Source of the DNA: Gammaproteobacteria bacterium
GTDB taxonomy: Bacteria > Pseudomonadota > Gammaproteobacteria > Pseudomonadales > Pseudohongiellaceae
DNA length: 64,000 nucleotides
Assembly: GCA_002711845.1 (NCBI GenBank)
Contig: PASF01000005.1
Location: 62,001 to 126,000 of the forward strand
Reading direction: 5' to 3'
The translations under genes and the position numbers were made by a program. This document shows, in pieces, positions 34,377 to 49,568 of the stretch (positions are counted from its first letter, which is position 1; the number at the start of each line of letters is the position of its first letter). The notes below the pieces were generated by a model that worked only from the letters and a program-made list of their open reading frames with translations, did no database searches and was not told where the DNA came from.

Positions 34377-35144
34377 ATGCGACATACCCAATACAAAAGC
34401 GACCATCACTATGTGTTGTTGAATCAGGACGTGCTCAGCGCGTTTTGTGATTCTGTTTTTGAAACCTCTGCAGACCATGTCACCCATATCTGCAGCGATG
34501 CGCAGGGGCGCGGCACGGTGGTGTTCTTTCAGCATGAGGACCGCGAGCTGGTGCTGAAACGCTACCACCGCGGCGGCCTGATTGGCCGGTTTGTCAAAGA
34601 CACGTATTTCTTTCGGGGTCTGAACAAAGTGCGCATGTGGCAGGAGTTCCGGCTGCTGGCACACATGCGCGACCTGGGCCTGCCGGTCCCGCGTCCGATC
34701 GCCGCCCGCTGCAGTAAAACCTCCCCGTTTACCTATCAGGGCGAGGTAATTGTCGAACGTATCTGCAACGCCCAGACGCTGGCCGAGCTGCTGTGTCAGC
34801 AGGCCCTGCCGGAGAAAACCTGGGAAGCCATCGGTCTGGTGATCCGGCGTTTCCATCAGCACCATGTTGACCACGCCGACCTCAATGCCTGCAATATCCT
34901 GATCACTGCGTCCGGGCAAATCTACCTGATCGATTTTGACAAAAGCCATATCCGCTCACCGCACGACCACGGCTGGAACCAGGTCAACCTCAGCCGCCTG
35001 CGCCGGTCGCTGCAAAAGTGGCAAAAACAGCAGCCGTATTTTCATTTCGAGTTGCGCCACTGGCTGGCACTGGAACGCGGCTATCAGGGCGCCCGATCAA
35101 TGCCTGCCCAGGTCTCGCGCTCCGCATCGGCCATCAGCCGCTAA
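34377..35144 (+). CDS. kdkA: 3-deoxy-D-manno-octulosonic acid kinase
   Basis: A 255-residue protein-kinase-like enzyme that phosphorylates Kdo on lipid A precursors with ATP. The N-lobe carries LVLKRYHRGGLIGRFVKDTYFF near residues 57-78 (Lys for ATP). The catalytic loop is DHADLNACNILIT near 163-175 and the metal motif YLIDFDKS near 180-187. These match the KdkA branch (HxDLNxxNIL and IDFDK). It pairs functionally with waaA at 22541. The stop region overlaps the convergent monooxygenase gene by 4 nt. Confidence 0.93.
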   Translation: MRHTQYKSDHHYVLLNQDVLSAFCDSVFETSADHVTHICSDAQGRGTVVFFQHEDRELVLKRYHRGGLIGRFVKDTYFFRGLNKVRMWQEFRLLAHMRDLGLPVPRPIAARCSKTSPFTYQGEVIVERICNAQTLAELLCQQALPEKTWEAIGLVIRRFHQHHVDHADLNACNILITASGQIYLIDFDKSHIRSPHDHGWNQVNLSRLRRSLQKWQKQQPYFHFELRHWLALERGYQGARSMPAQVSRSASAISR

Positions 35145-36628
35145 CGAAAGCTCAAGACACCGTCTTCCAGTTTGCCATGTCGCAACAGCTTGCGGTCACG
35201 GTTGTAGTCCTGGGTATTGACCCAGGGTTCCCGGTCACCCTGCCTGGGAAAGCGGTGCATCATGCGCTGCATGTAGCCCGCAGAGAAATCGTCGATAAAC
35301 GGCCGGGCCGTCATCTGCCGGTCTGTCTCTCTTAATGCCGGCCGGCAGCTGCGGGTGCCGGTCTCATCCAGATGATTGACCAGCCGGCAGAAGAATTCCG
35401 CTGTCAGATCGGCACGCAGGGTCCATGAAGCATTGATGTAACCAAAGGTGAACACCAGGTTGGGCACACCGGAATACATCAGCCCTTTGTAGGTCCAGGT
35501 GTCGGCAAAGTCCAGCGGTTTGCCATCCAGACTGAACGCCACCCCTCCCAGCACTTTCATGTTCAGCCCAGTCGCGGTCACGATGATGTCAGCCGGCAGC
35601 GTCTGGCCACTTTTCAGCAAAATGCCCTGCCCGGTAAACCGCTCGATATGGTCGGTGACCATGGTGGTGTCACCCTGCCTGATGGACTTGAACAGATCGG
35701 CATTGGGCACCAGACACAGGCGCTGATCCCAGGGGTTGTAGTTGGGGGTGAAGTGCGTGGCCACATCGTAGTCCGGCCCCAGCTCCTTGCTGACCATGTG
35801 CAGCAATTTCTCCTTCATTTGTGCCGGCCGGGTCCGCGAGCGGCGATAGATGAACTGCTGCAACAGCACATTCTTCCAGCGCGTGATGGCGTACGCCCAG
35901 GTCTCCGGCAGTATTTTGCGCATGGCATTGGCCACCACGTCCCGGTCCGGGCGCGACACCACGTAGGTGGGCGAGCGCTGCAGCACCGTGACCCGGGCGG
36001 CCTTGGCGGCCATGGCCGGCGCCAGTGTCATGGCGGTGGCGCCGGAGCCGATGATCACCACCCGTTTATCGGTGTAATCCAGATCGTCCGGCCAGTGCTG
36101 CGGGTGTACCACCGGCCCGGTGAAGTCTTCGCGACCCTCGAAGTCCGGCGTGTAGCCCTGGTCATAGCTGTAGTAACCCGAGCACATCAGCAGCATCCGG
36201 CAACGCAGGAGAACAGTTTCCTTACCGGCGACCGCCACGGTCAGCGTCCACAATGCGTCCTGTTCAGACCAGTCTGCCTTCAACAGTTTGTGCTTATAGC
36301 GGATATGCGGGTTGATGTCGCGCTCGGCTGCGGTTTCCCTGATATAGTCGAGGATCGCGGGACCGTCGGCGATGGACTTGGCCGCACGCCAGGGTTTGAA
36401 GCGGTAACCCAGCGTATGCATGTCACTGTCCGAACGGATGCCCGGATAACGAAACAGATCCCAGGTACCGCCCATGTCAGCGCGCGCCTCGAGAATGCAA
36501 TAGGTCTTGCCCGGACAATTGTCCTGCACATGGGCGGCAGCGCCAATGCCCGACAGGCCGGCGCCGATAATGATCACGTCCAGCGCCACTTCATGACCGG
36601 TCATTGCGTCTTGTTTAGTATTCACCAC
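35141..36628 (-). CDS. EthA-type Baeyer-Villiger flavin monooxygenase
   Basis: A roughly 495-residue FAD/NADPH monooxygenase that inserts oxygen next to ketones or oxidises S and N atoms. FAD loop IIIGAGLSGIGAAAH is near residue 19, then GGTWDLFRYPGIRSDSDM. The type I BVMO fingerprint FxGxxxHxxxWP is exact (FTGPVVHPQHWP near 165), and the NADPH loop is VVIIGSGATAMT near 188. The long colinear resemblance to mycobacterial EthA (SDSDM, NYNPWDQRLCLVPN, NASWTLRADL) is striking. GTG 36628 is preferred since AGAGG sits 7 nt ahead; ATG 36604 (MTGHEVALD) is the alternative. Upstream in-frame codons are antisense to the PQQ gene and are rejected. Confidence 0.9.
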   Translation of the reverse strand: MVNTKQDAMTGHEVALDVIIIGAGLSGIGAAAHVQDNCPGKTYCILEARADMGGTWDLFRYPGIRSDSDMHTLGYRFKPWRAAKSIADGPAILDYIRETAAERDINPHIRYKHKLLKADWSEQDALWTLTVAVAGKETVLLRCRMLLMCSGYYSYDQGYTPDFEGREDFTGPVVHPQHWPDDLDYTDKRVVIIGSGATAMTLAPAMAAKAARVTVLQRSPTYVVSRPDRDVVANAMRKILPETWAYAITRWKNVLLQQFIYRRSRTRPAQMKEKLLHMVSKELGPDYDVATHFTPNYNPWDQRLCLVPNADLFKSIRQGDTTMVTDHIERFTGQGILLKSGQTLPADIIVTATGLNMKVLGGVAFSLDGKPLDFADTWTYKGLMYSGVPNLVFTFGYINASWTLRADLTAEFFCRLVNHLDETGTRSCRPALRETDRQMTARPFIDDFSAGYMQRMMHRFPRQGDREPWVNTQDYNRDRKLLRHGKLEDGVLSFR

Positions 36629-36772
36629 GTGCAAACCTCTGCTGTTTTTATGTGTCGGCAGTATACCTAACAAGCGCTCGCATCTATAACTGTGGTTAAT
36701 TGACACTTGCAGATGCGCACAGACAGGCATAATCTGCGGCTGGTAACAAAAAATAAAAATGGGAGTTACACA

Positions 36773-38827
36773 ATGACAATAATAAACAGAGCCGGCTATG
36801 GCTTTGCGGGCATGGGCCTGCCCGGCGGACAACGGCACCTGGCCAGTGCGCTGGCCTTGACACTGGGGCTGACCGCGTCCGCTGCGCTGAACGCACAAGA
36901 GAGCGCACAGGACAATGTGGAATGGGTCACCCTGGGCGGTGATCACGCACACACGCGCTACACCCCCGCCGACCAGATCAACGCCGACAACTTCACCGAA
37001 CTGGAAACAGCCTGGGTCTGGGACGGCGCCAGTTTCAATGCCTCCAGCGGCCGCTCCACCCCCAGCTATGTCGATGGCAAACTGTTTACCGTGGCCGGCG
37101 AGCGCCGCCATGTCGTCGCCATCGACCCGGAGACCGGCGAGACCATCTGGTCCTACCGCGAACCGCATACCTTCCGGCATGAATACTCCATGCGCAAAGA
37201 TTATGGCAAGGGCGTGGCCTATGGCGAAGTGGATGGCAAGGGCGTCATTTACATCATCAGTCCGGCGTTCTTTCTGACCGCGCTGGACGCCGACACCGGC
37301 GCGCCACTGGAAGGCTTTGGTGGCCCGGTAGGCCTTGACGGCTTCCCGGAGACCGGTGTGGTCGACATGCAGCGCATCATTGCCGAGCGCATGGGCTACG
37401 ATTTTGACCCCTACTACGGCATTCCGCTGGAAGAAGGGTATATCACCGCGTCCTCGCCACCCATTGTGGTCAACAACACCGTGGTGGTGGGCAACTCCGC
37501 CGAGCAGGGTTATAACCAGACCCGAATTGAAAACATTCCCGGCGACATCCTGGCCTTTGACACCAAAACCGGTGACTTCAAATGGAAGTTCAATGTCATT
37601 CCTGAAGCCGGTGAATTCGGCATCGACACCTGGGAAGGTATCCCCAACCCGCGCGAGCTGACCGGAGAAGTATCACCCTGGGCGCCGCTGTCTGCCGACG
37701 TCGAAGCCGGCATCGTGTATGCGGTGACCAACCCGCCAACCATTGACTACTACGGTGGTCACGCACCGGGCGACAACCTGTTCGGCACCAGCATCATCGC
37801 CATGGATGCTGAAACCGGTGAGCGCGTCTGGCACTTCCAGTTTGTCAAACACGATGTCTGGAACTACGACACACCCACGGCGCCGGTGCTGCTGGATGTG
37901 GAAATCAACGGCCGGACCGTGCCTGCCATCGCGCAGGTCACCAAGCAGGCGTTTGTTTATGCCTTTAACCGCCTGACCGGTGAACCGCTCTGGCCCATCG
38001 AAGACCGACCAGTGCCGCCGTCGCGGATCCCGGGTGAGCAGTTGGCGGCGACGCAGCCTTTCCCGACCAAACCCGCGCCGTTTGACATGCAGGGCCTGAC
38101 CCACGACAACCTGATCAACTTCACGCCAGAGCTGCGTGCCCAGGCGATTGACGCGATTGCCGATTACGAGATCGGCCCACTGTTTAATCCGCCGCTGCAT
38201 CGCGACAATGATCTGGGCAAAGTGGCGGCGCTGTGGTGTCCGGGTGATGGCGGTGGTGCCAACATTCCCGGCCCCGCTGTCGCCGACCCGACCCGTGGTG
38301 TGCTGTATGTGACCTCACGCTCGGCCTGCTCTTCGCGCATGGTGACCACCGCACAGGAGCGTGATGCCATGATTGAACTGCCTACCGGCAGCACGTTCTC
38401 GCGCTACGCCTCACTGCGCGCACTGCCGGTGCGTGGTCCCCAGGGTCTGCCGCTGTATCAGCCGCCCTACAGCCGCATCACCGCCATCGACATGAACACC
38501 GGTGAGCACCTGTGGATGATTCCAGTGGGTGAAACGCCGGACCGCATCAAGAACCACCCGGCCCTGGCCGGCGTGGACGTGGGCAACACCGGCACCGGCG
38601 CCCTGGCGCCGATGACCGTGACCCCCAACATGTTGCTGTACGCCGGCCTGGGTGCGGGTGATACACCCTACCTGTTTGCGGTCGACAAACTGACCGGCGC
38701 AGAGATTGGTCGTGTGGAAGTACCGGCAAACAGCAACTTCGGTATGTCCAGCTACCAGCACAACGGCAAGCAGTACGTGATGCTGCAAACCGGCAGTACG
38801 CTGACGGCGGTTGCCCTGCCCGACTGA
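36773..38827 (+). CDS. PQQ-dependent dehydrogenase, periplasmic
   Basis: A 684-residue quinoprotein with an N-terminal export signal (hydrophobic ALALTLGLTASAALNAQ ending near residue 41) and an eight-bladed propeller. Propeller landmarks are GDHAHTRYTPADQINADN, DGKLFTVAGERRHVVAIDPETGETIW, GDILAFDTKTGDFKWKF, LFGTSIIAMDAETGERVWHFQFVKHDVWNYDTP and GTGALAPMTVTPNMLLY. No haem motif (CxxCH) is fused, unlike quinohaemoproteins, so electrons must go to a separate carrier; the cytochrome downstream is the natural candidate. The substrate (alcohol, sugar or aldehyde) is not determined. GGGAG lies 7 nt before ATG 36773. Confidence 0.88.
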   Translation: MTIINRAGYGFAGMGLPGGQRHLASALALTLGLTASAALNAQESAQDNVEWVTLGGDHAHTRYTPADQINADNFTELETAWVWDGASFNASSGRSTPSYVDGKLFTVAGERRHVVAIDPETGETIWSYREPHTFRHEYSMRKDYGKGVAYGEVDGKGVIYIISPAFFLTALDADTGAPLEGFGGPVGLDGFPETGVVDMQRIIAERMGYDFDPYYGIPLEEGYITASSPPIVVNNTVVVGNSAEQGYNQTRIENIPGDILAFDTKTGDFKWKFNVIPEAGEFGIDTWEGIPNPRELTGEVSPWAPLSADVEAGIVYAVTNPPTIDYYGGHAPGDNLFGTSIIAMDAETGERVWHFQFVKHDVWNYDTPTAPVLLDVEINGRTVPAIAQVTKQAFVYAFNRLTGEPLWPIEDRPVPPSRIPGEQLAATQPFPTKPAPFDMQGLTHDNLINFTPELRAQAIDAIADYEIGPLFNPPLHRDNDLGKVAALWCPGDGGGANIPGPAVADPTRGVLYVTSRSACSSRMVTTAQERDAMIELPTGSTFSRYASLRALPVRGPQGLPLYQPPYSRITAIDMNTGEHLWMIPVGETPDRIKNHPALAGVDVGNTGTGALAPMTVTPNMLLYAGLGAGDTPYLFAVDKLTGAEIGRVEVPANSNFGMSSYQHNGKQYVMLQTGSTLTAVALPD

Positions 38828-38848
38828 TAACCGACAGGCAGCACCAGA

Positions 38849-38882
38849 GGGGCGGAAAGCAGATGTTTTCCGCCCCTTTTTT
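38849..38882 (+). terminator. Rho-independent terminator after the PQQ dehydrogenase gene
   Basis: GGGGCGGAAA (38849-38858) pairs perfectly with TTTCCGCCCC (38867-38876) over an 8-nt loop, followed by TTTTTT (38877-38882). It lies between the dehydrogenase and its cytochrome, so the cytochrome gene either has its own promoter or receives reduced readthrough. Confidence 0.9.
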
Positions 38883-38937
38883 ATGTAGCATGCAAACGAA
38901 TCTGCAATCGCTCAATTCACCTGCGAGGTAAAGGTTC

Positions 38938-39804
38938 TTGAATACCCGATGGTTGTTTATCCTGATCGCGTTTGCCGGGGTTGCCGTGGCCGCACTGATG
39001 CGCGCGCCGTCGCTGCCGGATGTTGCAATTCCTGACGACGCAGCCAGCATTGAACGCGGACGTTATCTGGTGCACGCCGGTGGCTGCATCAGCTGCCACG
39101 AAGATGACAGCGGCAGCCTGAGTGGCGGCCTGGCCATTGAATCCCCTTTCGGCACCTTTTATGCTTCCAATATTACACCTGACCCCGATACCGGTATTGG
39201 CGGCTGGCAGGGCAGCGACTTTCTGCTGGCGCTCAAGCATGGCCGCACGCCTGCCGGCGGATTTTATTACCCCGCGTTTCCGTATCGCGCCTACGCCAGC
39301 GTGAGCGATGAGGATGTGTTGGCCATTGCGGCCTACCTGCTGTCACTGGACCCGGTGGCGGCACAGACTCCCGCGCACGATCTGCCCGGCTGGGTGGGTC
39401 GCTGGCAGATGGCCGGCTGGAACCTGCTCGCTGATATGGCGGCGCCCGAACCGGTGCAATACCACGATGCGCAGATCGCTCGCGGCGCCTACCTGACACA
39501 GAGTCTGGGCCATTGTGGCGAATGCCACACCCCGCGCAATGCCCTGGGCATCAGTCAGCAGGAGCAGGCGTTTGCCGGCGCCGACATGCCGGATGGGCAT
39601 GTTGACGCCATTGATGCAGAAGCCCTGGCCAGCTGGTCACAGGATGACCTGGCGCTGTTCCTGTTTATCGGGCTGAAACCTGACGGTGAGTATGTCGGTG
39701 GCAAGATGGAACCGGTGATTGAACACAATACCAGCCAGCTGACCGACACGGACCGGCAGGCGATGGCAGCATTCCTCAAACACCGGATACCGGGCTTGGA
39801 TTGA
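38938..39804 (+). CDS. Di-haem cytochrome c
   Basis: A 288-residue exported cytochrome with two c-type haem sites, CISCH near residues 50-54 and CGECH near 193-197, each in a separate cytochrome domain. The N-terminal hydrophobic helix (FILIAFAGVAVAALM) serves as signal or anchor. The domain layout (GRYLVHAGGC, GTFYASNITPDPDTGIGGW, GAYLTQSLGHCGECHTPRN) is typical of cytochromes that accept electrons from quinoprotein or molybdenum dehydrogenases. It starts at TTG 38938, a few nt after GAGGTAAAGG. It lies 110 bp behind the PQQ dehydrogenase and is its likely partner. Confidence 0.87.
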   Translation: MNTRWLFILIAFAGVAVAALMRAPSLPDVAIPDDAASIERGRYLVHAGGCISCHEDDSGSLSGGLAIESPFGTFYASNITPDPDTGIGGWQGSDFLLALKHGRTPAGGFYYPAFPYRAYASVSDEDVLAIAAYLLSLDPVAAQTPAHDLPGWVGRWQMAGWNLLADMAAPEPVQYHDAQIARGAYLTQSLGHCGECHTPRNALGISQQEQAFAGADMPDGHVDAIDAEALASWSQDDLALFLFIGLKPDGEYVGGKMEPVIEHNTSQLTDTDRQAMAAFLKHRIPGLD

Positions 39805-39856
39805 CGTCGAAACATCGCTTGAACGCTCGTGAACATGCCGCAGGCGATGTACATGC

Positions 39857-40108
39857 TCAGGGATCTGGACACGCGCTGGACTGTTGATGACCGGCACGCA
39901 AAGTGACATAGCCATACCGTATTCTGGAGGCTGCCATCACAGCAAAGGCAAGAAAGCTGATACCGGTGCCCACAAACGAGAGCATCAATAACAACGCCCA
40001 GGATAGGTTGGCGGGGTCAGCAAGGCCAAATGCAAATACCACCGCCTGATAAAAAATAAAATCCAGCGTGATATCCAGAAACCCGCCAGCATCACTGGGT
40101 GTTCCCAA
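39857..40108 (-). pseudogene. ynjF: Remnant of ynjF-type CDP-alcohol phosphatidyltransferase
   Basis: An 83-codon fragment whose SDAGGFLDITLDFIFYQAVVF and FVGTGISFLAFAVMAAS sequences match the middle of YnjF-type CDP-alcohol phosphatidyltransferases. The family motif DGxxARx8GxxxDxxxD is cut: only GGFLDITLD (Gx3Dx3D) remains, and the DGxxAR half with the first membrane helices is absent. After ...AAS the sequence jumps in frame to RIRYGYVTLRAGHQQ, resembling the protein's far C-terminus, so an internal segment of about 60 residues is also missing. Family members are about 200 residues. It sits behind ynjD, the position ynjF has near E. coli ynjBCD, and is very probably inactive. Confidence 0.75.
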
Positions 40109-40121
40109 CCCGGGCCAGGCG

Positions 40122-40751
40122 TCAACCGAGCTCTACAACAGGGCCGCCACTGGCAGCGGCATCCTCGGCATCGTGGGTGACCAGAATGGTCGGTAAACCG
40201 GCATCCTTCAGCGTCTGAAACACATGCTGACGAACCTCCTGGCGCAAATGTGCATCGAGCCGTGAAAACGGTTCATCCAGCAGTACCGCTTTGGGTTGTG
40301 ACAGCAGCAGGCGCTGCAGTGCCACCCTTGCCTTCTGACCGCCAGACAACGTGGCTGGATCACGATGACCAAAGCCCTCCAGACCCACCGCCCGTAACGC
40401 CTGCTCTACCTGCGCCCGGCGATCCCGCACATGACCGGGCAACGCAAAACTCAGATTCTGGGCAACCGACAGATGCGGGAATAGCAACGGATCCTGGAAC
40501 AGCAGACCAACCTGACGCCGCTCTGCGGGCAGCCCGTTTAGACTTCGGTCATTCAGATATATCTCACCACTGGCCTCAAACTCTGGCGCGAGGAAACCGG
40601 CAATATAAGCCAGCAATGAGGACTTGCCGATACCCGAGGGCCCCATGACTGTCAATGTGGCACCCGGCTCTATCGCCGTATCCAGTTGCAGCAGCCTCCG
40701 GCCATGCAAGCGTATATCAATATTTTTTAATGTCAGCCGTGAAGCGCTCAT
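40122..40751 (-). CDS. ynjD: ABC transporter ATP-binding subunit
   Basis: A 209-residue ABC ATPase that powers the YnjBCD-type importer. Walker A GPSGIGKSS is near residues 37-45, Q-loop LLFQDPLLF near 85, signature LSGGQKARVAL near 135, Walker B AVLLDEPFSRLDA near 157 and H-loop LVTHD near 190. The start at ATG 40751 (MSASRLTLKN) overlaps the permease stop as ATGA; longer in-frame starts would run back into the permease gene. Length is close to E. coli YnjD. The substrate is unknown. Confidence 0.9.
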   Translation of the reverse strand: MSASRLTLKNIDIRLHGRRLLQLDTAIEPGATLTVMGPSGIGKSSLLAYIAGFLAPEFEASGEIYLNDRSLNGLPAERRQVGLLFQDPLLFPHLSVAQNLSFALPGHVRDRRAQVEQALRAVGLEGFGHRDPATLSGGQKARVALQRLLLSQPKAVLLDEPFSRLDAHLRQEVRQHVFQTLKDAGLPTILVTHDAEDAAASGGPVVELG

Positions 40752-42430
40752 GTCAGCTGCCCTCGCATATCGCGTCGGTGGCGCCACCAGAATCGGGGCC
40801 AGGCAATCGCCAGCGCAAAACCCAGCATGGGAATGGCTGCCTGCAACAATGCCCATACTGCAATTGTGCCGCGTGTGCCACCTGAGGCCAGGGCTACGGC
40901 TTCAGTGGTCAGTGTGCTGACACGCCCCGCCCCTGTCAACAACGTCGCCAGGTACTGCCCGATACTGACAGCCAGGCCAACTGCGCCTGCAGTGGCGATC
41001 GGCGCCATCAGCATCGGCAGCTTGATCCGCCACAAACTGCGATTGGCGCTGACACCGAGCGTGGCAGACAATTGCTGCCAGCGCGGGTCCAGGCGACGAT
41101 AGGGCTCAGCCAGGGACAGGTACACATACGGCACAACGAACAGGCAATGTGCAAAGCAGACCATGACCAGGCCCGGTAGCCAGCGGAGTTGCTCCAGCAA
41201 CAGGGTCAGGCCATACAGAAACACCACCTGAGGCACCAGTAGTGGCAGATAGATTGCCCACAGCAGCCGCGCCGGTGCCCGAGCCTGACGGCTTTCATGC
41301 TCCAGCGCGGCAATCACCAGCACGACAGCAAGCAGTGTCGACCCCAGGGCCAGCAGCATGGTGTTGCGCAAAGGGGTCAGCAGCACCGGCCCCACGGAAA
41401 GCCAGTGTTGTGTGGTCCAGGTGCCCGGCAGGTTGGCCGGGAAACGCCAGGGCCCGGCAAATGCATGAACAATCAGCAGCACAAGACTCAACAGCAGCGC
41501 CCCGAGCGTCAACACCATCAGCCCTTTACCGGCTATATTGAGCAGGGTATGGCCGGTGTTCCGTACGCCGCTTAGCAATACGCGGCGATAAAGGCGGGCA
41601 ACGACTTTTTCAGCGGCGATCCACAGCCCGATGGCAGACAGCGTAATGGCCAGTTGCATCAAAGCAGCGGCCGAGGCCAGCAAACGCTGGTTCAGGTCGG
41701 GGTCGCTGAACCAGCCGATAATGCGGACGCTCAATGGCGGCGGCAACGTTGGACCAAGAATCAGGGCAACGTCGACGGTGGCCGAGGCGAAGGCAATGAC
41801 GGCAAACAACGGCAGCCGCAACATGGGGTAAAGCGCCGGCGCCACGGTCCAGAACCAGGCCAGTATGGGCCGATAGCCCAGGGTGCGGGCCATCGCCACG
41901 CGCTGGTCCGGATTGAGCTGTGGCAGGGCAGCCAGGGCCATGAGCAACAAAAAGGGTATTTCCTTGAGCACCATTCCCAGCATCATGGACAGGCCCAATG
42001 GATCATTGAGTATCAACAGGTCTGGGGGGCGTTGCCAGCCACTAAGTTCGGGAGAAATCAGACGCAGGGCGAACCCGGACGGTGCCATCAGAAAAGCCAG
42101 GCCAAAGGCTGCGGCGGCATGCGGTACCGCCAACAGCGGCGCCACCAGTCGACGCATGGCATGAGCCCAGCGCGTTCCACTGGCGCTGGCCAGAAACAGC
42201 ATGACCAGTGCCAGCGACAGCAGCGGTGTCAGCAGACCGGCAGCAAAGCTGAGCATGGCGCTGCGGCCTATACCCGGGGTGTCCAGCAGATCCACCCATA
42301 CTGCCAGTCCGGGCTCGGTGTGCTGCAGGGCTGGCAGATAACCAAATGCCGGCAGGACGATCGTTGCCAAGCCAGCCACCACCGGCAGGACCAACAAACC
42401 AAACATGAACCAGGGCGCGACTCGCAGCAT
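40748..42430 (-). CDS. ynjC: ABC transporter permease, fused two-domain
   Basis: A 560-residue inner-membrane permease with two tandem BPD-transp domains (about 12 hydrophobic segments), as in YnjC and ThiP-like proteins. Each half carries an EAA-type cytoplasmic loop that contacts the ATPase: ARTLGYRPILAWFWTVAPAL near residues 180-200 and SATLGVSANRSLWRIKLPML near 460-480. It follows the binding-protein gene by 26 nt and overlaps ynjD by 4 nt. It differs from classical two-polypeptide permeases by being one chain, so a single copy is enough per transporter. Confidence 0.9.
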   Translation of the reverse strand: MLRVAPWFMFGLLVLPVVAGLATIVLPAFGYLPALQHTEPGLAVWVDLLDTPGIGRSAMLSFAAGLLTPLLSLALVMLFLASASGTRWAHAMRRLVAPLLAVPHAAAAFGLAFLMAPSGFALRLISPELSGWQRPPDLLILNDPLGLSMMLGMVLKEIPFLLLMALAALPQLNPDQRVAMARTLGYRPILAWFWTVAPALYPMLRLPLFAVIAFASATVDVALILGPTLPPPLSVRIIGWFSDPDLNQRLLASAAALMQLAITLSAIGLWIAAEKVVARLYRRVLLSGVRNTGHTLLNIAGKGLMVLTLGALLLSLVLLIVHAFAGPWRFPANLPGTWTTQHWLSVGPVLLTPLRNTMLLALGSTLLAVVLVIAALEHESRQARAPARLLWAIYLPLLVPQVVFLYGLTLLLEQLRWLPGLVMVCFAHCLFVVPYVYLSLAEPYRRLDPRWQQLSATLGVSANRSLWRIKLPMLMAPIATAGAVGLAVSIGQYLATLLTGAGRVSTLTTEAVALASGGTRGTIAVWALLQAAIPMLGFALAIAWPRFWWRHRRDMRGQLT

Positions 42431-42456
42431 GTCAGAGTCCTGTCAGCCAGAGGCAG

Positions 42457-43713
42457 TCAGCGGACACCATAACGCGCCATCCACGCCTGCTCCAGGGCAT
42501 CCATCCAGCTGGGATGCGGTTCCTGCAGTTGCCGACGATCACTCATCAGCGGGGGTGCTGCCGGGTGATCCTGGCGCGTGGCGGCAAACTGTTGCTGCTC
42601 GGCGGATGGCAGTGAATCAATGTCGATGACCGGGGTACCACCCAGATGCCGGGGATCCAGCGCCCGCAGTTGTGCTTCGACCGACAGCAGAAAATTGGCC
42701 GTCACCATGGCCGCCGCTTTATGGCTGGCATTGAAGGGGATGGCGACAAAACTGACGTTGGCCAGCGTTCCACGGTCAGGCAGGATTGTGCGAACAGTAT
42801 CCGGCAGTTCATTGCGGATAACACTGTTGACCGCTTCAGCCGGATTAAAGGACAGGGCCAGCGACGTCTCGCCGTCTGCCATCAGCCGGCGCAACTCCGC
42901 TGCGTTTGCCGGGAAGGTACGCCCCTGACGCAATAACAGCGGGTGCAACGCATCCAGAAACGTCCATAGCGGCGCGGTAATGCTTTCAAAATCGCTCTCG
43001 CCTGCGGGCCGGTAAAGCGGCTGGTGATCATCAGTCAGCTCCAGCAAGGCCTGTTTCAGAAATGTTGTTGCCAGAAAGTTTGGTGGGCGGGGATAAGTGA
43101 ATTCACCCGGGTACTGCCGTGCCCAGGCCAGCAGCTCTGCCACGTTACGTGGCGCCGCCTCGACATAGGCACTGTCATAATAGAACACCAGGTGGGCGCG
43201 CAGCCAGGGTGATTCATAGCCTTCAACGGGCACCGTGAAATCGAATCGTACATCCGGATTGTCATCCGCATTGACCAGTGCGAAGTTGGGCAGTTGCTCC
43301 GCCCAGGGTCCAAACAGCAGGTCGTTGGATTTCAGACTGGCAAAGTTTTCGCCGTTCAGCCACAACAGGTCAACGGCGCCGTCCTGCAGGGTACCGGCCT
43401 GCCTTTCGGCGAGCACCCGGGATACGGCATCAGAGGTGTCACCCAACCGCACATGAGTCATGCGCACACCGTGCAGTTCATTCACGCGTCGGCCCACCCA
43501 GGCCAGATAATCATTAATTTGCGGGTCCCCACCCCAGGCATAAAAGAATAACGCCTGACCCTCGGCAGCCTGCACGACAGACGGCCAGTCGGAGGGCGCG
43601 GGTGACTGCGCCGACAGCTTACCGACCGCGCCTGATGTCAGCACCACAGCCGCTGCCAGCCACCCACATAGCCGGCGGCCATATCTGGAGGCTGTCATGA
43701 AAGGCCGGTTCAT
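42457..43713 (-). CDS. ynjB: ABC transporter solute-binding protein
   Basis: A 418-residue exported periplasmic binding protein. The signal peptide (LCGWLAAAVVLTSGAVGKLSAQ) is cut after about residue 36. The mature protein has the type II binding-protein pattern of YnjB: ALFFYAWGGDPQINDYLAWV, DLLWLNGENFASLK, VNADDNPDVRFDFTVPVEGYESPW, and TYPRPPNFLATTFLKQALLEL. These aromatic and Asn/Asp-rich loops line the ligand cleft in relatives. ATG 43713 overlaps the radical SAM stop by 4 nt, tying uptake to that enzyme. The ligand is unknown. Confidence 0.88.
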   Translation of the reverse strand: MNRPFMTASRYGRRLCGWLAAAVVLTSGAVGKLSAQSPAPSDWPSVVQAAEGQALFFYAWGGDPQINDYLAWVGRRVNELHGVRMTHVRLGDTSDAVSRVLAERQAGTLQDGAVDLLWLNGENFASLKSNDLLFGPWAEQLPNFALVNADDNPDVRFDFTVPVEGYESPWLRAHLVFYYDSAYVEAAPRNVAELLAWARQYPGEFTYPRPPNFLATTFLKQALLELTDDHQPLYRPAGESDFESITAPLWTFLDALHPLLLRQGRTFPANAAELRRLMADGETSLALSFNPAEAVNSVIRNELPDTVRTILPDRGTLANVSFVAIPFNASHKAAAMVTANFLLSVEAQLRALDPRHLGGTPVIDIDSLPSAEQQQFAATRQDHPAAPPLMSDRRQLQEPHPSWMDALEQAWMARYGVR

Positions 43714-44807
43714 GATGTCTGGTGCGCAGGGATCACATTGATGCGCCGTTTTAATCGTTGCCGGTGCAGATCAGCCAGCACGGGGCCCAGGTGGTCGCGA
43801 AAGAACGTATCACAGCCGATGCAGATATTGCTGTAGCTGCTGCCATCCGGGGTGGTGGTGTGACAGGCGTCCAGGAACTGCGGCACCTGCCAGTCCATGT
43901 TCAGGCCCATGCGCTCGGGCTTGCCCGCGTTGATGGCTTCAAACACCGGGTGCCCCGCCAGACTGTCCAGAATATCCAGCAGCGGTTCTTCCGTCAGGTT
44001 GCCCAGCGGTCGCGCCGTTTTCAGGCAACAGGGGTAGACGTTGCCGTCCGGGTCGATGGACACCTCGGAGCCGCTGTAGCCGTGCTCCAGGAAACCCAGG
44101 CCGCCCGACCAGGCATTACAGAAGTTGTCCTGCAGAGTGGCTTTGGACAGATTATTGCGCCAGGCACGGCCGCGAGGCCAGATCTTGCCGATCCAGGCAT
44201 CGTCGGTCGCACCGAACAGGCTATACACCGGCGGGCCGCCCTGGTCCGTATCGCGACGCTCATCGTGATCGGCCATGCTGATCATGCCCGCCGCTTCAAA
44301 CATCTTTTTCAGCTTTTCGGCCAGTTCATATTTCTTCTCGCCCTGCATGCCGACATGATAGTCGTCGATGCCAGCTGCCGACACTGACCAGACACCGCGG
44401 CTGAGCAATTCATCCAGTATCTGCGCGGTGAGCAGGTCGCCGGTGGTCTGCACAATGACCTTGACGCCGCCCCGGTCCCGGTATTTGTCACGGATCGCTT
44501 CCAGCGCGGGGTATAACACCCGCTCACGTACCGGCTCGGTCAGCACATCACCGCCGGAGATGATGATACGACCGGTGCGGCGCCGGAAACCATCCGGGCT
44601 GTCCGGGTCGGGGGTATTGCGATCCAGATACTGCATGGATGCCGGCAGGTTGTTGATGATCGCAGGCGCGCTGCTGGCCGCTTCACTGACCACGGACTCC
44701 AGCTCATCGCGCACATAGGGGCGGAAACGTTCATCGTAACAATGCTTGCAGCGCCGGTGACAATGCCAGCACAGGACGTAATATATGGACTCCAAGGGCA
44801 ACTCCAT
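43710..44807 (-). CDS. Radical SAM/SPASM-domain enzyme, substrate unknown
   Basis: A 365-residue radical S-adenosylmethionine enzyme. The [4Fe-4S] triad is C16-x3-C20-x2-C23 (CHRRCKHC), followed by the SAM-contact loop ISGGDVLTEP near residues 83-92. The C-terminal part has cysteines at 230, 260, 261, 315, 329 and 332, a SPASM/twitch-like arrangement for extra iron-sulfur clusters. Such enzymes typically modify peptides or proteins or do difficult C-H chemistry. No family assignment is possible by eye. Its stop overlaps ynjB (4 nt), and it lies 88 bp behind cytochrome c'. The first Cys at 13 is outside the motif and may be structural. Confidence 0.85.
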   Translation of the reverse strand: MELPLESIYYVLCWHCHRRCKHCYDERFRPYVRDELESVVSEAASSAPAIINNLPASMQYLDRNTPDPDSPDGFRRRTGRIIISGGDVLTEPVRERVLYPALEAIRDKYRDRGGVKVIVQTTGDLLTAQILDELLSRGVWSVSAAGIDDYHVGMQGEKKYELAEKLKKMFEAAGMISMADHDERRDTDQGGPPVYSLFGATDDAWIGKIWPRGRAWRNNLSKATLQDNFCNAWSGGLGFLEHGYSGSEVSIDPDGNVYPCCLKTARPLGNLTEEPLLDILDSLAGHPVFEAINAGKPERMGLNMDWQVPQFLDACHTTTPDGSSYSNICIGCDTFFRDHLGPVLADLHRQRLKRRINVIPAHQTS

Positions 44808-44848
44808 TGTTATGGTCGATCAACGGTCAGGACCGACAGACTTACCAG

Positions 44849-44895
44849 GTTCAGACCGGCTGCACCGGGCAGGTCGTTCAGACAACGCCGGGCAG
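44849..44895. repeat. Paired short direct repeats between cytochrome c' and radical SAM genes
   Basis: GTTCAGAC occurs at 44849-44856 and 44876-44883, and CCGGGCAG at 44865-44872 and 44888-44895, interleaved within 47 bp of the 88-bp gap. No complete Rho-independent terminator is present. The function, if any, is unknown; a regulator site or RNA structure is possible. Confidence 0.45.
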
Positions 44896-45381
44896 TCAGT
44901 CGACCCGGTACTCGCGGTGGCAGTTGCCGCAGGTAGAGCCGAAGGCCCGGATGCCGGCGATGGTGGTATTGCGATCACCACCTGACGCGATGCCGGCAAA
45001 GGTAATCGCGGCGGCGCGCAGATCGGTTGCCTTCTGGGCGAAGTCGGGCTGACTTTCCCAGATCACCGGCAGTGCCTCGGTGTCGACATCAAACTCGCGC
45101 GTATCGTACACATCAAATACTTCCGGAATCATCGGTGCCAGGTCAGCGATACGTAACGCGTTGCGCTCGGCCAGTTCCGCGTCAAACTCCATGGCACCAC
45201 GGGCCATGCGGCTGATGGGGGCCATATTGAAGGCCAGCAGCTTGAAGACTGCCTGGCGGGTTTCGGTCGCCGCGGTGGCCAGTTCAGCCGGTGTGGGCGG
45301 GGTGTCTTCCTGCGCATAGGCATTGACGATCAGGGCCGAGGTCAGCGCCAGGGCGCCCACACTGAGTACTTTTTTCAACAT
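44896..45381 (-). CDS. Cytochrome c' (class II c-type cytochrome)
   Basis: A 161-residue exported monohaem cytochrome of the four-helix-bundle c' family. The signal peptide (VLSVGALALTSALIVNAYAQ) is cut after about residue 23. The haem site CGNCH lies near the C-terminus (residues 152-156), as in all class II cytochromes. The conserved RQAVFKLLAFNMAPISRMARGAMEFD is near 42-67. Family members bind nitric oxide or act in electron transfer in the periplasm. It is on the same strand as the radical SAM/ynj genes with an 88-bp gap, so it may be co-transcribed with them. Confidence 0.9.
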   Translation of the reverse strand: MLKKVLSVGALALTSALIVNAYAQEDTPPTPAELATAATETRQAVFKLLAFNMAPISRMARGAMEFDAELAERNALRIADLAPMIPEVFDVYDTREFDVDTEALPVIWESQPDFAQKATDLRAAAITFAGIASGGDRNTTIAGIRAFGSTCGNCHREYRVD

Positions 45382-45435
45382 ACGGTCTACTCCATTGTTG
45401 TTATTGCGAATAGGTCATAATACCGGGACCCGGCA

Positions 45436-46878
45436 TCAACTCTGTTGCATTTTTTCCACAATAGCAGACGTGGAACAATTGTCCAGAAAGGCCAGCACAC
45501 GCACCTCACCGCCATACCCTTGCACAAATTCACCCCCGACAACGGTGTCAACAGAGTAGTCACCGCCTTTGACCAGCACGTCCGGGCGCAAGGCCTGTAA
45601 CAGTGCCTCCGGTGTATCCTCGGGAAAACTCACTACCCAGTCGACAGCCGACAGACCGGCCAGCACGGCCATGCGCCGGTCGACCGGGTTGATAGGCCGC
45701 CCACTGCCTTTCAGACGCTTGACCGAGTCGTCGTCATTGATGGCCACGATCAAACGGTCACCCTGCCGGCGCGCATCTTCCAGATACCCGACATGGCCGG
45801 CATGAATGATGTCGAAGCAGCCATTGGTGAAGACAATTTTCTCGCCCTGGACGCGTGCATCGGCGACCACCGTGGCCAATTGCTCGGCGGTCATCACACC
45901 CCGGCCGCTGCCTTCCTGCAGCTGAATGGCACGGCGCAGTTCCGGTCCACTGATGGCGGCCGTACCCAGTTTGGCGACCACCAGGCCGGCGGCCAGATTG
46001 GCCAGCGCGGTGCCGGTTTCCAGTGACTGGCCGGCGGCCAGGGCGGCGGCCAGCACCGACACCACGGTGTCGCCGGCGCCGGTAACATCGAACACTTCGC
46101 GCGCCTGCGCCGGCAGGTGCAGCACCGGGCGGGCCGCCTGCAGCAGAGTCATGCCGTGTTCGCCGCGAGTAATCAGCAGCGCATCCAGTTCCAGACTCTC
46201 ACGCAGGGCCTGGCCTTTGCTGACCAGTTCCTCTTCATTGCGACAGGGGCCAGCCACGGCCTCGAATTCACTGAGGTTGGGGGTGATCACGGTGGCGCCG
46301 CGGTACTTGCTGAAGTCATCGCCCTTGGGGTCCACCACCACCGGCATGGCGCGCGCACGGGCGGCCTGGATCAGCGCCTGGGTCTGCCCCAGGGCGCCTT
46401 TGCCGCCCAACGTGCCTTTGCCATAGTCGGACAGGATCAGCACCTGGGACGCAGGCATCGCCGCGATCGCCTGCTGTTGCAGTTTCGCGACGTCATCGTC
46501 CGCAAACGGCTCTTCAAAATCCACCCGTAGCAGCTGTTGATGCTGGCTGGTGACCCGCAGCTTGGTAATGGTCGGCGCGCTGAGTGAGGCCTGGAAATGA
46601 CACAGCACACCGGCTGCCGCCAGGCGGCGGCCCAGTTCGTCGCCGGCTTCATCCTGGCCGGTGATGCCCGCCAGCGATGCGGCGGCGCCCAGGGCGGCGA
46701 TATTGAGCGCCACGTTGGCAGCGCCACCGGGCCGATCATCGTTACCATGGACCTTGACCACCGGCACCGGGGCCTCCGGTGATATACGGGTGGCCTTGCC
46801 ATGCCAGTAGCGGTCGAGCATGACATCACCGACCACCAGTACCGTCGCCTGCTGAAAAGGAGGCATCTCCAGCTTCAT
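45436..46878 (-). CDS. hldE: Bifunctional heptose-7-phosphate kinase / heptose-1-phosphate adenylyltransferase
   Basis: A 480-residue cytosolic enzyme making ADP-glycero-manno-heptose for the LPS inner core. The N-terminal RfaE1 kinase domain (PfkB fold) has GGAANVALNIAALG near residue 50 and FDVTGAGDTVVSVLA near 260. The C-terminal RfaE2 nucleotidyltransferase has FTNGCFDIIHAGHVGYLEDARRQGD near 350 (HxGH motif) and CSTSAIVEKM at the end. Start ATG 46878 (MKLEMPPF) follows AGGGGAAAG. Longer in-frame starts lack a ribosome site and conserved sequence. It supplies the heptose used by WaaC and WaaF. Confidence 0.95.
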   Translation of the reverse strand: MKLEMPPFQQATVLVVGDVMLDRYWHGKATRISPEAPVPVVKVHGNDDRPGGAANVALNIAALGAAASLAGITGQDEAGDELGRRLAAAGVLCHFQASLSAPTITKLRVTSQHQQLLRVDFEEPFADDDVAKLQQQAIAAMPASQVLILSDYGKGTLGGKGALGQTQALIQAARARAMPVVVDPKGDDFSKYRGATVITPNLSEFEAVAGPCRNEEELVSKGQALRESLELDALLITRGEHGMTLLQAARPVLHLPAQAREVFDVTGAGDTVVSVLAAALAAGQSLETGTALANLAAGLVVAKLGTAAISGPELRRAIQLQEGSGRGVMTAEQLATVVADARVQGEKIVFTNGCFDIIHAGHVGYLEDARRQGDRLIVAINDDDSVKRLKGSGRPINPVDRRMAVLAGLSAVDWVVSFPEDTPEALLQALRPDVLVKGGDYSVDTVVGGEFVQGYGGEVRVLAFLDNCSTSAIVEKMQQS

Positions 46879-47065
46879 TGCTTTCCCCTGAGAATCCTGC
46901 GTGACCGGCGCAGCGCCGTTCCATAAAAGACGCGCTGTAGCCAGCCGCCATCTGCGGGCATGATACCACCGGCCGGGGCCGCCATAAACCACACGCGCCA
47001 CGGCTGCGGCGAGTCTGCTACAATGCGACCTGACAAGTCGCAAAACAACGACAACAGGACAGGGC

Positions 47066-48031
47066 GTGGGACGACCAGCACAACAAGACGCAAAACTGAG
47101 CGATTTTCTCGGCCCCCGCTTTTGGCCAACGTGGCTGGGTTACGGCTTCATCTGGTGCATCGCCCGGCTGCCTTTCGCCTGGCAGATGGCCATGGGCCGC
47201 GCGCTGGGACTGATCAGCTATCGGTTCGCCCGCAGCCGCCGGCATATCTGCGAAGTCAACATTGCACTGTGCTTCCCGGAACTCTCCGCCGCCGAGCAGC
47301 ACAAACGGGTGCGTGACACCTTTATTTCCAACGGCATTGGGGTCATGGAGATCGGTCTGGCCTGGTGCCGCAACCCTGAAGATTTCCGTGACCGGGTAAC
47401 GGCCACCGGACTGGATAATCTGGTGGCGGCGCAGGCACAGGGGCGTGGTGTGTTATTGGTCAGCGCGCACTTCTCCACCATCGAGTTTGTCGGTTCACTG
47501 ATGTCCCTGTTGCATCCGTTCGACGTCACTTACCGGTATCACAAGAACCCCCTGTTCGACACCTTGATGAAGCGCGGCCGGCAGCGACTGTACGGCGCGG
47601 TGATCGAGCGCAAAGAAGTCAGGTACGCACTGCGCCGCCTCAAGGAAGGCCATGTGGTGTGGTACGCCGCCGATCAGGATTACGGGGCAAAGTACTCGGT
47701 GTTTGTGGACTTCTTTGGCATCAAGGCCGCCACCATAACCGCCACGCAGAAGTTTGCCAGCTTCAATAACTCGCCGGTGATATTCCTGTCCCATTACCGC
47801 AACCCGGACAACGCCAGTTACCATCTGTATTTCAGCGAACCGCTGCCTGACTACCCCAGTGGCGATGAGCATACTGACGCGCGACGCATCAATGAACTCA
47901 TTGAAGCCGCGATACGTCACGAACCGGCGCAATATATCTGGTTACATCGACGCTTCAAATCCAGGCCGCCCGGCATGCCCGACCTTTACCGGCGCAAACC
48001 GGTCAGGCCGCCCGGGAGCGCAGACGCATGA
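47066..48031 (+). CDS. Lipid A late acyltransferase (LpxL/LpxM family)
   Basis: A 321-residue membrane-anchored acyltransferase that adds a secondary acyl chain to Kdo-lipid A. The N-terminal hydrophobic region (LGYGFIWCIARLPFAWQ) is followed by the family's catalytic HxxxxE motif, SAHFSTIEFVG near residue 132. Then come GHVVWYAADQDYGAKYSVFVDFFGIKA near 190 and QYIWLHRRFKSRP near 292. The YAADQDYG pattern is typical of LpxL. It starts at GTG 47066, divergent from hldE across 187 bp, and overlaps the next gene by 4 nt. The acyl chain cannot be told from sequence. Confidence 0.92.
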   Translation: MGRPAQQDAKLSDFLGPRFWPTWLGYGFIWCIARLPFAWQMAMGRALGLISYRFARSRRHICEVNIALCFPELSAAEQHKRVRDTFISNGIGVMEIGLAWCRNPEDFRDRVTATGLDNLVAAQAQGRGVLLVSAHFSTIEFVGSLMSLLHPFDVTYRYHKNPLFDTLMKRGRQRLYGAVIERKEVRYALRRLKEGHVVWYAADQDYGAKYSVFVDFFGIKAATITATQKFASFNNSPVIFLSHYRNPDNASYHLYFSEPLPDYPSGDEHTDARRINELIEAAIRHEPAQYIWLHRRFKSRPPGMPDLYRRKPVRPPGSADA

Positions 48032-49554
48032 TGCGCACCGATGCCATGCCAGCCGTAAACGGCATCAATCGCATCCGCTGGCTGACGGTCATTATCAGCG
48101 TGTTGCTGTCCGGGCTGGCCCTGACACTGAATGATCAGCCCAATCACGATGCCTACGAATATGTCCGGGCCGCCGAGATCGCCCTGCAAAGCGGGATATC
48201 TGACGCCTATGCGCATTATCAATGGGCACATTATTCGCTGCTGCTGGCCGGCATCCATGCCTTGACTGGGCTCGACCTGTTCACCGCAGCCCATCTGCTC
48301 AATGCCATACTGTTTGCCCTGATCAGCCTCGGTTTTGTCAACCTGGTGGCCGCGGCCACGCCATCACGGCGCGTCGTCTGGCTGGCGGCGCTGATCATTC
48401 TGATTTTCCCCACACTCAATGAATCGCGCTTTCTCATCGTCCGTGATACCGGCTTCCTGGCTTTCAGCCTGCTGGCCATGCTGCAACTGCTGCGCTACTG
48501 GCTGACCCTGCGTTTGCGCCATGCCGTGCTGTTCGTCGTCAGCTGTCTGCTGGCCACGCTGTTCCGGCCCGAAGCCATCGCTTTCTGGTTACTGAGCCCG
48601 CTGGCGCTGCTGTTCAACAACACCCACCCGGCTGCCGCCTGTCGCCGGGCGCTGGCAGTGATCACGGGGCTCAGCGCCCTGCTCGCCCTGCTGGTGGTGA
48701 TCACCGTGGCCGCGCTGGGCCAGATCGACCTGCCGCAGTTGCTGCGCAGCTTCGCCGGCATCTATCAACCGTTTGCCAACAATATCGCGCAACTGCTGGG
48801 CAACAATACCTATGAGCTGAGCCGCTCGGTGTTTGGTGACTACGCCGCGCAGTTCGTGGACCACTTTACCCATTTTTTCCTGCTCGCAGGGTTGCTGGGG
48901 CTGCTGCTGGTCTTCATCATTGATGGCCTGGGCCTGGCGGCCGTACCGCTGCTGATTTACGGCGTCAGCCGCCGCCTGTACCGGCTGCCAAACGGCGCCA
49001 CCACCGTGTTTGTGGCCTGGATGACGGTGGCCCTGCTGATCCTGATCGGCTTCATTCTGCTGACCCGGTTTACCACCACGCGATATACCCTGTTGCTGTG
49101 CCTGATCCTGCTGCTTTGGTTGCCCTTTATTGTGGATCGCGCCTGGAGCCTGGCCGCGGCCAACAGCCATCTACAACGTTTTTCCTGGATAGTGGGTTTC
49201 CTGGCGCTGTTTTCAGCGGTTGACGCCCATGTGTCTTTCGGGGCCTCCAAGGCGCACCTGGATGACGCCACCGCCTGGCTGTTGCAGAACACCCGTGCCG
49301 AAGCGGCACTGGTGACCAACGAGATACGCGTGGCTTACGATAGCGGCCGGGTGGCCGAATTTGATCGCGTTGAGAGAGAACTGGATCCGGCGGTGATCGC
49401 CAATGCGGCACCCGGCAGCATTATCGCCGTGACGTTACGGCGCGGATTCTCGGAGCTGGTGGAGGCACAGCTGGCCAGCGGCCAGTTGCGACTGCTCCGG
49501 CAGCTGCCCGCCGAGCGTGGCGGCGACTTCCTGATCATGGAAAAAGACTTCTGA
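48028..49554 (+). CDS. Polytopic membrane glycosyltransferase-like protein
   Basis: A 508-residue membrane protein with about ten hydrophobic segments. Near the start is NDQPNHDAYEYVRAAE, with acidic residues in the first periplasmic loop, as in ArnT/PMT-type GT-C enzymes. The C-terminal soluble part (about residues 390-508) is periplasmic or cytosolic. GT-C enzymes use polyprenyl-phosphate sugars outside the membrane, and the coupling to a lipid A acyltransferase (ATGA overlap) supports lipid A or LPS modification. Family assignment is inferred from topology and one motif; it could be another O-antigen-type membrane protein. Confidence 0.62.
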   Translation: MMRTDAMPAVNGINRIRWLTVIISVLLSGLALTLNDQPNHDAYEYVRAAEIALQSGISDAYAHYQWAHYSLLLAGIHALTGLDLFTAAHLLNAILFALISLGFVNLVAAATPSRRVVWLAALIILIFPTLNESRFLIVRDTGFLAFSLLAMLQLLRYWLTLRLRHAVLFVVSCLLATLFRPEAIAFWLLSPLALLFNNTHPAAACRRALAVITGLSALLALLVVITVAALGQIDLPQLLRSFAGIYQPFANNIAQLLGNNTYELSRSVFGDYAAQFVDHFTHFFLLAGLLGLLLVFIIDGLGLAAVPLLIYGVSRRLYRLPNGATTVFVAWMTVALLILIGFILLTRFTTTRYTLLLCLILLLWLPFIVDRAWSLAAANSHLQRFSWIVGFLALFSAVDAHVSFGASKAHLDDATAWLLQNTRAEAALVTNEIRVAYDSGRVAEFDRVERELDPAVIANAAPGSIIAVTLRRGFSELVEAQLASGQLRLLRQLPAERGGDFLIMEKDF

Positions 49555-49568
49555 CGCCTCGTTAACCG

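Follow-up and report, generated by a model that had tools for sequence, protein, structure and literature searches.

Conserved gene linkage between a divergent radical SAM protein and the YnjBCD importer

The subject of this analysis is a radical S-adenosylmethionine (SAM) protein, here called rSAM, and the importer genes that follow it, ynjB, ynjC, and ynjD, in a 64,000-nucleotide stretch of DNA from a gammaproteobacterium of the family Pseudohongiellaceae (assembly GCA_002711845.1, contig PASF01000005.1, positions 62,001 to 126,000), which we refer to as the window. An initial annotation made from the sequence had described these genes as a tightly coupled set on one strand, and they are present as described (Table 1). 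On the minus strand, the order of transcription is cytochrome c', rSAM, ynjB, ynjC, ynjD, and a short open reading frame (ORF) at 39857-40108. In the sequence itself, the stop codon of rSAM overlaps the start codon of ynjB by 4 nt in an ATGA, and ynjC and ynjD overlap in the same manner. A 4-nt overlap of the rSAM stop with a candidate ynjB start is possible in at least 12 of 41 other loci listed, counting the candidate starts listed, so coupling of the 2 genes probably recurs. Since relatives of rSAM begin at MESIYYV, and the window codon at this point is the TTG at 44795 with GGAG six bases upstream, this TTG, 12 nt past the annotated ATG, is the probable start of rSAM. Assignment of the importer to YnjBCD follows from YnjB, which matches NF008633 with 485 bits (cut-off 203), and from the adjacent ynjC and ynjD.

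Table 1. Features of the rSAM-ynjBCD unit and its neighbors, with positions in the window.
Feature	Coordinates	Strand	Remarks
Radical SAM (rSAM)/twitch protein, 365 amino acids	43710..44807	-	over no NCBIfam cut-off
ynjB, periplasmic solute-binding protein, 418 amino acids	42457..43713	-	NF008633
ynjC, permease, 560 amino acids	40748..42430	-	26 nt past ynjB; kept beside ynjB in relatives
ynjD, ATP-binding cassette (ABC) ATPase	40122..40751	-	PF00005, 109 bits
ynjF remnant (CDP-alcohol phosphotransferase)	39923..40108	-	sits in ORF 39857-40108
Cytochrome c'	44896..45381	-	PF01322, 91.9 bits; neighbor, not a conserved part of the unit

We found 105 relatives of rSAM in genome contigs and examined the best 80 loci, which are mostly proteobacterial. 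The initial annotation had proposed a functional link between importer and enzyme, and the comparison of gene order supports it: ynjB lies beside or near rSAM in 59 of the 80 loci, directly following it on the same strand in 56, separated from it by a single gene in 2, and lying on the opposite strand in 1. The other 21 have no ynjB in the stretch, 2 of them with less than 700 nt of room. Within the window's family, rSAM and ynjB each occur in 37 of 137 genomes and occur together in 36, the 2 exceptions being an rSAM copy at a contig edge (G128) and a genome with ynjB only (G032). Distances among rSAM proteins correlate with those among YnjB proteins (r=0.78 over 42 loci, 0 of 2000 permutations as high), a correlation to which shared ancestry contributes. 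Gene order across these 42 loci persists at mean identities of 62% for rSAM and 53% for YnjB, and the YnjB proteins of rSAM loci cluster, with 4 label changes versus 13.4 in shuffles. The linkage is also kept where an APH gene is inserted between rSAM and ynjB (L093, L148), where glycosyltransferase-type genes lie between ynjB and ynjC (L112, L116), and after an inversion in L111. The cytochrome c' gene, which ends 88 bp before the rSAM ATG and had been noted as an upstream neighbor by the initial annotation, has a relative in 0 of the 80 rSAM loci and was ruled out as a partner.

Within the genus, the unit is found at several chromosomal sites. It lies between pepA and valS in L070, L072, and L180; in L069 and L179 it follows a tRNA-Leu gene and has a superoxide dismutase gene nearby. 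The 64-kb window contains neither the pepA-valS nor the tRNA-Leu flanks. Genes could travel together in this way by horizontal transfer without sharing a function, and the patchy spread through the family, the multiple sites, one of them beside a tRNA-Leu gene, and a clade of rSAM without ynjB are all consistent with such passive linkage. It does not account well for an order that is retained at the identities given above after relocation and rearrangement, nor for co-occurrence that persists in some genomes with the 2 genes apart (including G818). Since the unit moves and rearranges and yet stays together, we consider passive linkage improbable. Inheritance and movement of rSAM as a unit with the importer suggest that it works on the importer's cargo.

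The dependence is one-way, in that ynjBCD does not need rSAM. In a class-wide sample of 369 genomes, 14 have ynjB and only that of the window has rSAM; in a phylum-wide sample ynjB occurs in 51 of 398. The initial annotation had tied the importer to the enzyme, and this part of its proposal has to be given up: most of the sampled ynjBCD genomes are without rSAM, and one clade of rSAM is without ynjB. That clade holds 12 of the 17 tree rows of ynjB-less rSAMs. In 4 of 18 genomes with no ynjB at the rSAM locus, ynjB is found elsewhere (two Nisaea, L109, and L146, a fragmented assembly), and the other 14 lack it. A gene for a TauD-family dioxygenase (PF02668) often precedes rSAM in the ynjB-less clade, and the dioxygenase may be an alternative partner of rSAM. 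It stands directly before rSAM in nine ynjB-less loci (L118, L120, L121, L124, L131, L132, L138, L139, L144), and the L115 stretch is cut off at its edge. An MMPL-type transporter then follows in L115, L118, L120, L138, and L139, in L118 after a TetR-type regulator. Upstream of rSAM, madL and madM (malonate transporter) occur in 16 loci and an AMP-binding enzyme gene in 17, including L077, L079, L080, L082, L088, L089, and L094; these loci are mostly from one related group, and the association is possibly due to chance.

Where rSAM is missing, a different gene is usually found near the importer. A gene for YnjF, a CDP-alcohol phosphotransferase, is in the stretch for 43 of 59 ynjBCD loci without linked rSAM (11 of 12 in a first set and 32 of 47 in a second, which includes G818), and in 2 of 49 rSAM-linked loci with enough sequence. 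In the window, the short ORF after ynjD is not a new gene but contains a ynjF remnant, which the initial annotation had not noted. The remnant corresponds to residues 74-135 of the intact YnjF of L179, with 87% identity; the rest was not found, and the remnant is the only YnjF match in the window's genome at E 1e-8. Intact L179 YnjF has 205 amino acids and matches PF01066 (CDP-alcohol phosphatidyltransferase) with 36 bits (cut-off 22), and its best NCBIfam match, archaetidylinositol phosphate synthase, reaches 57.6 bits (cut-off 180), below every family cut-off listed. A search of 30 whole rSAM genomes gave YnjF matches other than the remnant in 4 (G023, G031, G528, and G531, the last in two pieces). 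Both genes are present in L069 and G023, the window has rSAM and the ynjF remnant, and G032 (L179) has intact ynjF and no rSAM. Where L069 has about 1.35 kb, the rSAM site of G032 has about 0.14 kb, between flanks that are 89-90% identical. Within the genus the losses run in opposite directions, the window having lost most of ynjF and the sister lineage G032 having lost rSAM. These opposite losses, together with the near-exclusion of the 2 genes in the loci sampled, lead us to infer that one imported compound is put to either of two uses, by rSAM or by YnjF.

A further set of genes accompanies ynjBCD in a few loci. An APH-type kinase gene with TIGR04283 and TIGR04282 genes is found in 4 loci that have neither rSAM nor ynjF (L165, L271, L292, L296), and an APH gene occurs with rSAM in L093, L146, and L148. 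Of the 80 loci, 8 have TIGR04283-like genes near rSAM and 7 have TIGR04282-like genes there, and six loci that were scanned are over the TIGR04282/TIGR04283 cut-offs, three of them with rSAM (L100, L112, L146) and three without (L165, L271, L292). Both families bear the NCBIfam name "arsenosugar biosynthesis glycosyltransferase," which is no proof of substrate. One could imagine from this that YnjBCD scavenges organoarsenicals, importing an algal arsenosugar-like or other methylated metalloid compound that rSAM would break or rebuild. Consistent with this, VTT-MerA-like and DUF547 genes recur with ynjBCD, and the Bosea locus L112 carries on one strand a VTT-MerA-like fusion, ynjF, rSAM, ynjB, TIGR04283, TIGR04282, ynjC, and ynjD. 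In Kordiimonas (L226:4199-11005), MerA-like, VTT, and DUF547 genes lie next to TIGR04282- and TIGR04283-like genes, along with a methyltransferase that resembles ArsM (174 bits, cut-off 263) and a further radical SAM protein that is Rv1681-like (107 bits, cut-off 380); by its gene content this stretch appears to be an arsenosugar-like set, although neither the methyltransferase nor the radical SAM protein reaches any of the family cut-offs listed.

Known arsenosugar sets (ArsS/ArsM) thus share TIGR04282, TIGR04283, VTT, and MerA-like genes with some rSAM/ynjBCD loci. The window rSAM in contrast has no match to ArsS (TIGR04167) at E 0.01, only 5 of 51 rSAM genomes contain ArsS over its cut-off, and no arsenosugar-type genes were identified among the window ORFs scanned around the unit. 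TIGR04283 is over its cut-off in 46 of the 51 rSAM genomes but also in 105 of the 137 family genomes, rSAM being present in 37 of the 137; because TIGR04283 is widespread in the family whether or not rSAM is present, this co-occurrence was dropped as support, and no link to arsenic was found at the genome level. With ArsS rare and TIGR04283 common anyway, an arsenic substrate is possible and faintly indicated, and we regard arsenosugar scavenging as quite improbable. Apart from these loci, a set of VTT-MerA-like, DUF547, ynjBCD, and ynjF genes without rSAM was seen in L278, L279, L283, L284, L286, L287, and L288, which recalls the E. coli ydjXYZ-ynjABCD set.

We treat rSAM as a divergent member of the radical SAM superfamily on the basis of its motif and predicted fold, a cluster site in an N-terminal partial barrel. 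C16, C20, and C23 form a CX3CX2C cluster site that is invariant in all 63 aligned relatives; the protein scores 30.4 bits against the Pfam SPASM model (cut-off 21.5) and 20.6 bits against Radical_SAM, below the gathering cut-off of 29.5. The initial annotation had called it a radical SAM/SPASM enzyme with six extra cysteines. The cluster motif and the six cysteines (C230, C260, C261, C315, C329, C332) are there, but C315 varies, as does C13, and the conserved cysteines are of the twitch type. A SPASM motif has seven cysteines and two auxiliary clusters. The conserved extras of rSAM are C230, C260, C261, C329, and C332 only, each invariant in 63 of 63 relatives, which falls short of the seven-cysteine motif. 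BtrN, as described in an excerpt of PMC9012708, has a twitch arrangement with a four-cysteine auxiliary cluster and carries out a two-electron oxidation, and the invariant C230, C260, C329, and C332 are the set expected for a putative twitch cluster on that description. The auxiliary cysteines of rSAM fit a four-cysteine twitch-like set, putatively one cluster, plus C261. Since four invariant cysteines would suffice for one auxiliary cluster, "SPASM" is to be read here as a shortened form.

The AlphaFold model of rSAM has a predicted local distance difference test (pLDDT) score of 87.8, and Foldseek returned loose matches to EpeE, anSME, BtrN, viperin, SuiB, and other enzymes of ribosomally synthesized and post-translationally modified peptides (RiPPs). 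The best is EpeE, a peptide epimerase (8ai4, E 7.3e-8, TMq 0.50), which shares 12% identity with rSAM. EpeE is a RiPP enzyme; beside rSAM, in contrast, no precursor gene was seen. The match to BtrN, the butirosin twitch dehydrogenase (4m7t, E 5.8e-6, TMt 0.57), is at 14% identity: both proteins have CX3CX2C and one four-cysteine auxiliary set (putative in rSAM), whereas rSAM has another genome context and the extra invariant C261. The likeness is one of fold and cysteines only. The reaction type of rSAM is thus a guess guided by predicted fold and cysteines. A sequence search of solved structures with rSAM gave nothing useful, and plasmid records gave no match.

These structural matches raise the question of whether rSAM could be a RiPP maturase, its importer then serving for peptides or being incidental. 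Weak similarity to DynA in 14 of the 63 relatives would fit with this. The NCBIfam scan of these relatives gave otherwise only a weak match to heme b synthase in 1 member, and the window rSAM reached no cut-off (DynA, 21 bits, cut-off 450; StsB, 18 bits, cut-off 625), so no RiPP family is over its cut-off, and the auxiliary cysteines correspond to the shorter set of the twitch type. The initial annotation had also noted that no precursor gene was visible and had suggested a small molecule, for example a cofactor precursor. The absence of a precursor gene stands for the operon, which has no precursor-sized gap; small ORFs outside it were not systematically searched. A small-molecule substrate fits with this lack of space within the operon, and we consider a role of rSAM as a RiPP maturase very improbable.

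The window belongs to a Pseudohongiella-like genome: four of the five nearest rows in the rSAM tree are three Pseudohongiella records and one metagenome-assembled genome (MAG) titled Rhodoferax, which is probably misnamed. Two MAG records, L069 (titled Rhodoferax sp.) and L075 (Klebsiella pneumoniae), have rSAMs 86% and 66% identical to that of the window; they seem to be the same as G031 and G046 of the window's family, and their titles are probably wrong. In G085:C170:15763-16820, the rSAM match is split into two pieces that overlap but differ in frame, and the gene is broken or misassembled.

The importer YnjBCD is listed as an uncharacterized transport system (COG4134-4136) in an excerpt of PMC9207381. 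YnjC resembles ThiP/PhnV, and YnjD, among the best 25 of its 184 family matches, resembles PhnT/PotA, both below the cut-offs of all families listed. The model of YnjB (pLDDT 88.3) has the fold of a periplasmic binding protein; the first of 50 listed structure matches, which are at 13-18% identity, is the Salmonella solute-binding protein STM0429. A sequence search of solved structures with YnjB gave weak matches, the best being polyamine binders. Residue 321 of YnjB (window numbering) is Ser or Asn in 42 of 43 rSAM-linked proteins (L117 has His) and His in 12 of 12 rSAM-less proteins compared with them, while the G032 protein has Ser. We stated beforehand that this residue would predict rSAM and checked the prediction on 47 new ynjB loci. 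All 33 His loci were without rSAM, but so were 13 of 14 Ser/Asn genomes, and residue 321 thus marks a clade and not the pair.

Taken together, we favor, with moderate confidence, the reading that rSAM and YnjBCD form one metabolic unit, in which a hydroxylated compound is imported and then oxidized or epimerized by rSAM, with YnjF providing an alternative fate. The analysis shows the genes and their conserved linkage and co-occurrence, the mobility and one-way dependence of the unit, the near-exclusion with ynjF among the sampled loci, the cysteine sets, and the predicted folds; the direction of transport, the class of the cargo, and its fates are what we infer from these, and the reaction is a guess. 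YnjB would bind a small, polar, hydroxylated molecule in the periplasm for import by YnjCD. In the cytosol, the cluster at C16/C20/C23 would produce a 5'-deoxyadenosyl radical that abstracts a hydrogen atom from this molecule. The putative auxiliary [4Fe-4S] cluster (C230, C260, C329, C332) would accept or relay an electron, giving a BtrN-like two-electron oxidation; alternatively, C261 may be the hydrogen donor in an EpeE-like epimerization. In lineages without rSAM, the imported molecule or its product would pass mostly to YnjF and in a few to the kinase/glycosyltransferase set, so that rSAM and YnjF would be alternative fates of one cargo pool. A wider version of this reading, which we consider only a tentative extension and rather unlikely, is that a single hydroxylated metabolite has at least 3 interchangeable fates (phospholipid-type coupling by YnjF, a kinase/nucleotidyltransferase/glycosyltransferase route, and radical oxidation or epimerization by rSAM) and is also the cargo of E. 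coli YnjBCD.

Several observations weigh against the favored reading. Outside the window's own genome and G221, rSAM is found in only 1 of the 60 other ynjB genomes (class- and phylum-wide samples plus G032), namely G818, where it is on another contig, and the residue 321 prediction failed, with rSAM in the genome for 1 of 14 new Ser/Asn-type loci. At E 1e-30, ynjB is missing from 14 of the 27 rSAM genomes examined, in a set chosen to be rich in ynjB-less loci, which indicates that rSAM can act on something YnjBCD does not import. The ynjF comparison (uncorrected Fisher p 2e-9 for 2 of 49 versus 11 of 12 loci) was drawn after the pattern had been seen and is uncorrected for relatedness. Of the 43 loci with ynjF, 6 carry it on the other strand, 1.4-1.9 kb past ynjD, and 16 of the 59 ynjBCD loci without linked rSAM have no ynjF either. 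The description of the cargo as "hydroxylated" is taken from the YnjF family name. Foldseek matched rSAM loosely, with TMq 0.39-0.50 for the eight best structures, and a peptide epimerase heads the list. The structure matches of YnjB, which name no ligand, span binders of polyamines, metal-citrate, sugar phosphates, iron, and thiamine, and a review table (in an excerpt of PMC9397018) places E. coli YnjB among polyamine transport proteins.

Linkage and coupling would be equally expected if the importer acted in retrieval, with rSAM helping to make an exported small molecule and YnjBCD recovering the product or its loaded form in the manner of a siderophore. Glycosyltransferase, nucleotidyltransferase-like, or kinase genes, which such a pathway could use, are present in L093, L100, L111, L112, L116, L129, L133, L135, L146, and L148. 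No exporter or other biosynthetic gene recurs as ynjBCD does, however, the next families being found in at most 17 of the 80 loci (ORFs of at least 70 amino acids), and ynjBCD is commoner than rSAM, which is odd for a product-specific importer. Retrieval therefore seems doubtful to us.

For the unit of import and radical chemistry that we favor, the closest known relative of the importer is in E. coli, the one control genome matched by NF008633, where ydjXYZ-ynjABCD-ynjE contains the same importer family. This stretch is annotated with two DedA-family proteins, a 4Fe-4S protein, an AhpD-like protein, ynjBCD, and ynjE, and we take ynjF to lie beyond ynjE. It contains no rSAM; in the window, by contrast, no DedA/VTT, AhpD, or ynjE was identified beside ynjBCD and the ynjF remnant. 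An excerpt of PMC3688515 lists ydjXYZ-ynjABCD-ynjE as an FNR-regulated operon. The relation with ynjF ties the question of the cargo to this E. coli K-12 operon and its easy genetics. Both halves of the pair are orphans, rSAM reaching the cut-off of no NCBIfam family and YnjBCD being uncharacterized in the excerpt of PMC9207381 cited above. A conserved enzyme-importer pair merges the two questions into one, since YnjB, as the binding protein, can serve as bait for the substrate of rSAM. If the reading with several fates were true, the rSAM family would define a new import-coupled radical pathway. In the open-access library searched, no paper contained both "ynjB" and "radical SAM," nor the arsenosugar combinations.

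Searches for regulatory or ligand clues were mostly negative. None of the 20 short and 8 long loci scanned contained a riboswitch or other Rfam element at the gathering cut-off, and window positions 35000-50000 gave one weak match, at 47171-47241, outside the operon. No FNR-like boxes were found upstream of rSAM or the cytochrome c' gene; matches with 2 mismatches lie inside genes at 41022 and 43213, and the window total is 25 versus 13.5 expected. Promoter and terminator scans showed no usable excess over shuffles. Just past the ynjF remnant, on the plus strand, positions 36707-39804 hold a gene for a dehydrogenase of the pyrroloquinoline quinone (PQQ) type and then a cytochrome c gene. Elsewhere in the window's own genome, contigs C6 and C14 (the latter reversed) have three gene matches with identical scores, an indication that a stretch of at least 46 kb is duplicated or was assembled twice.

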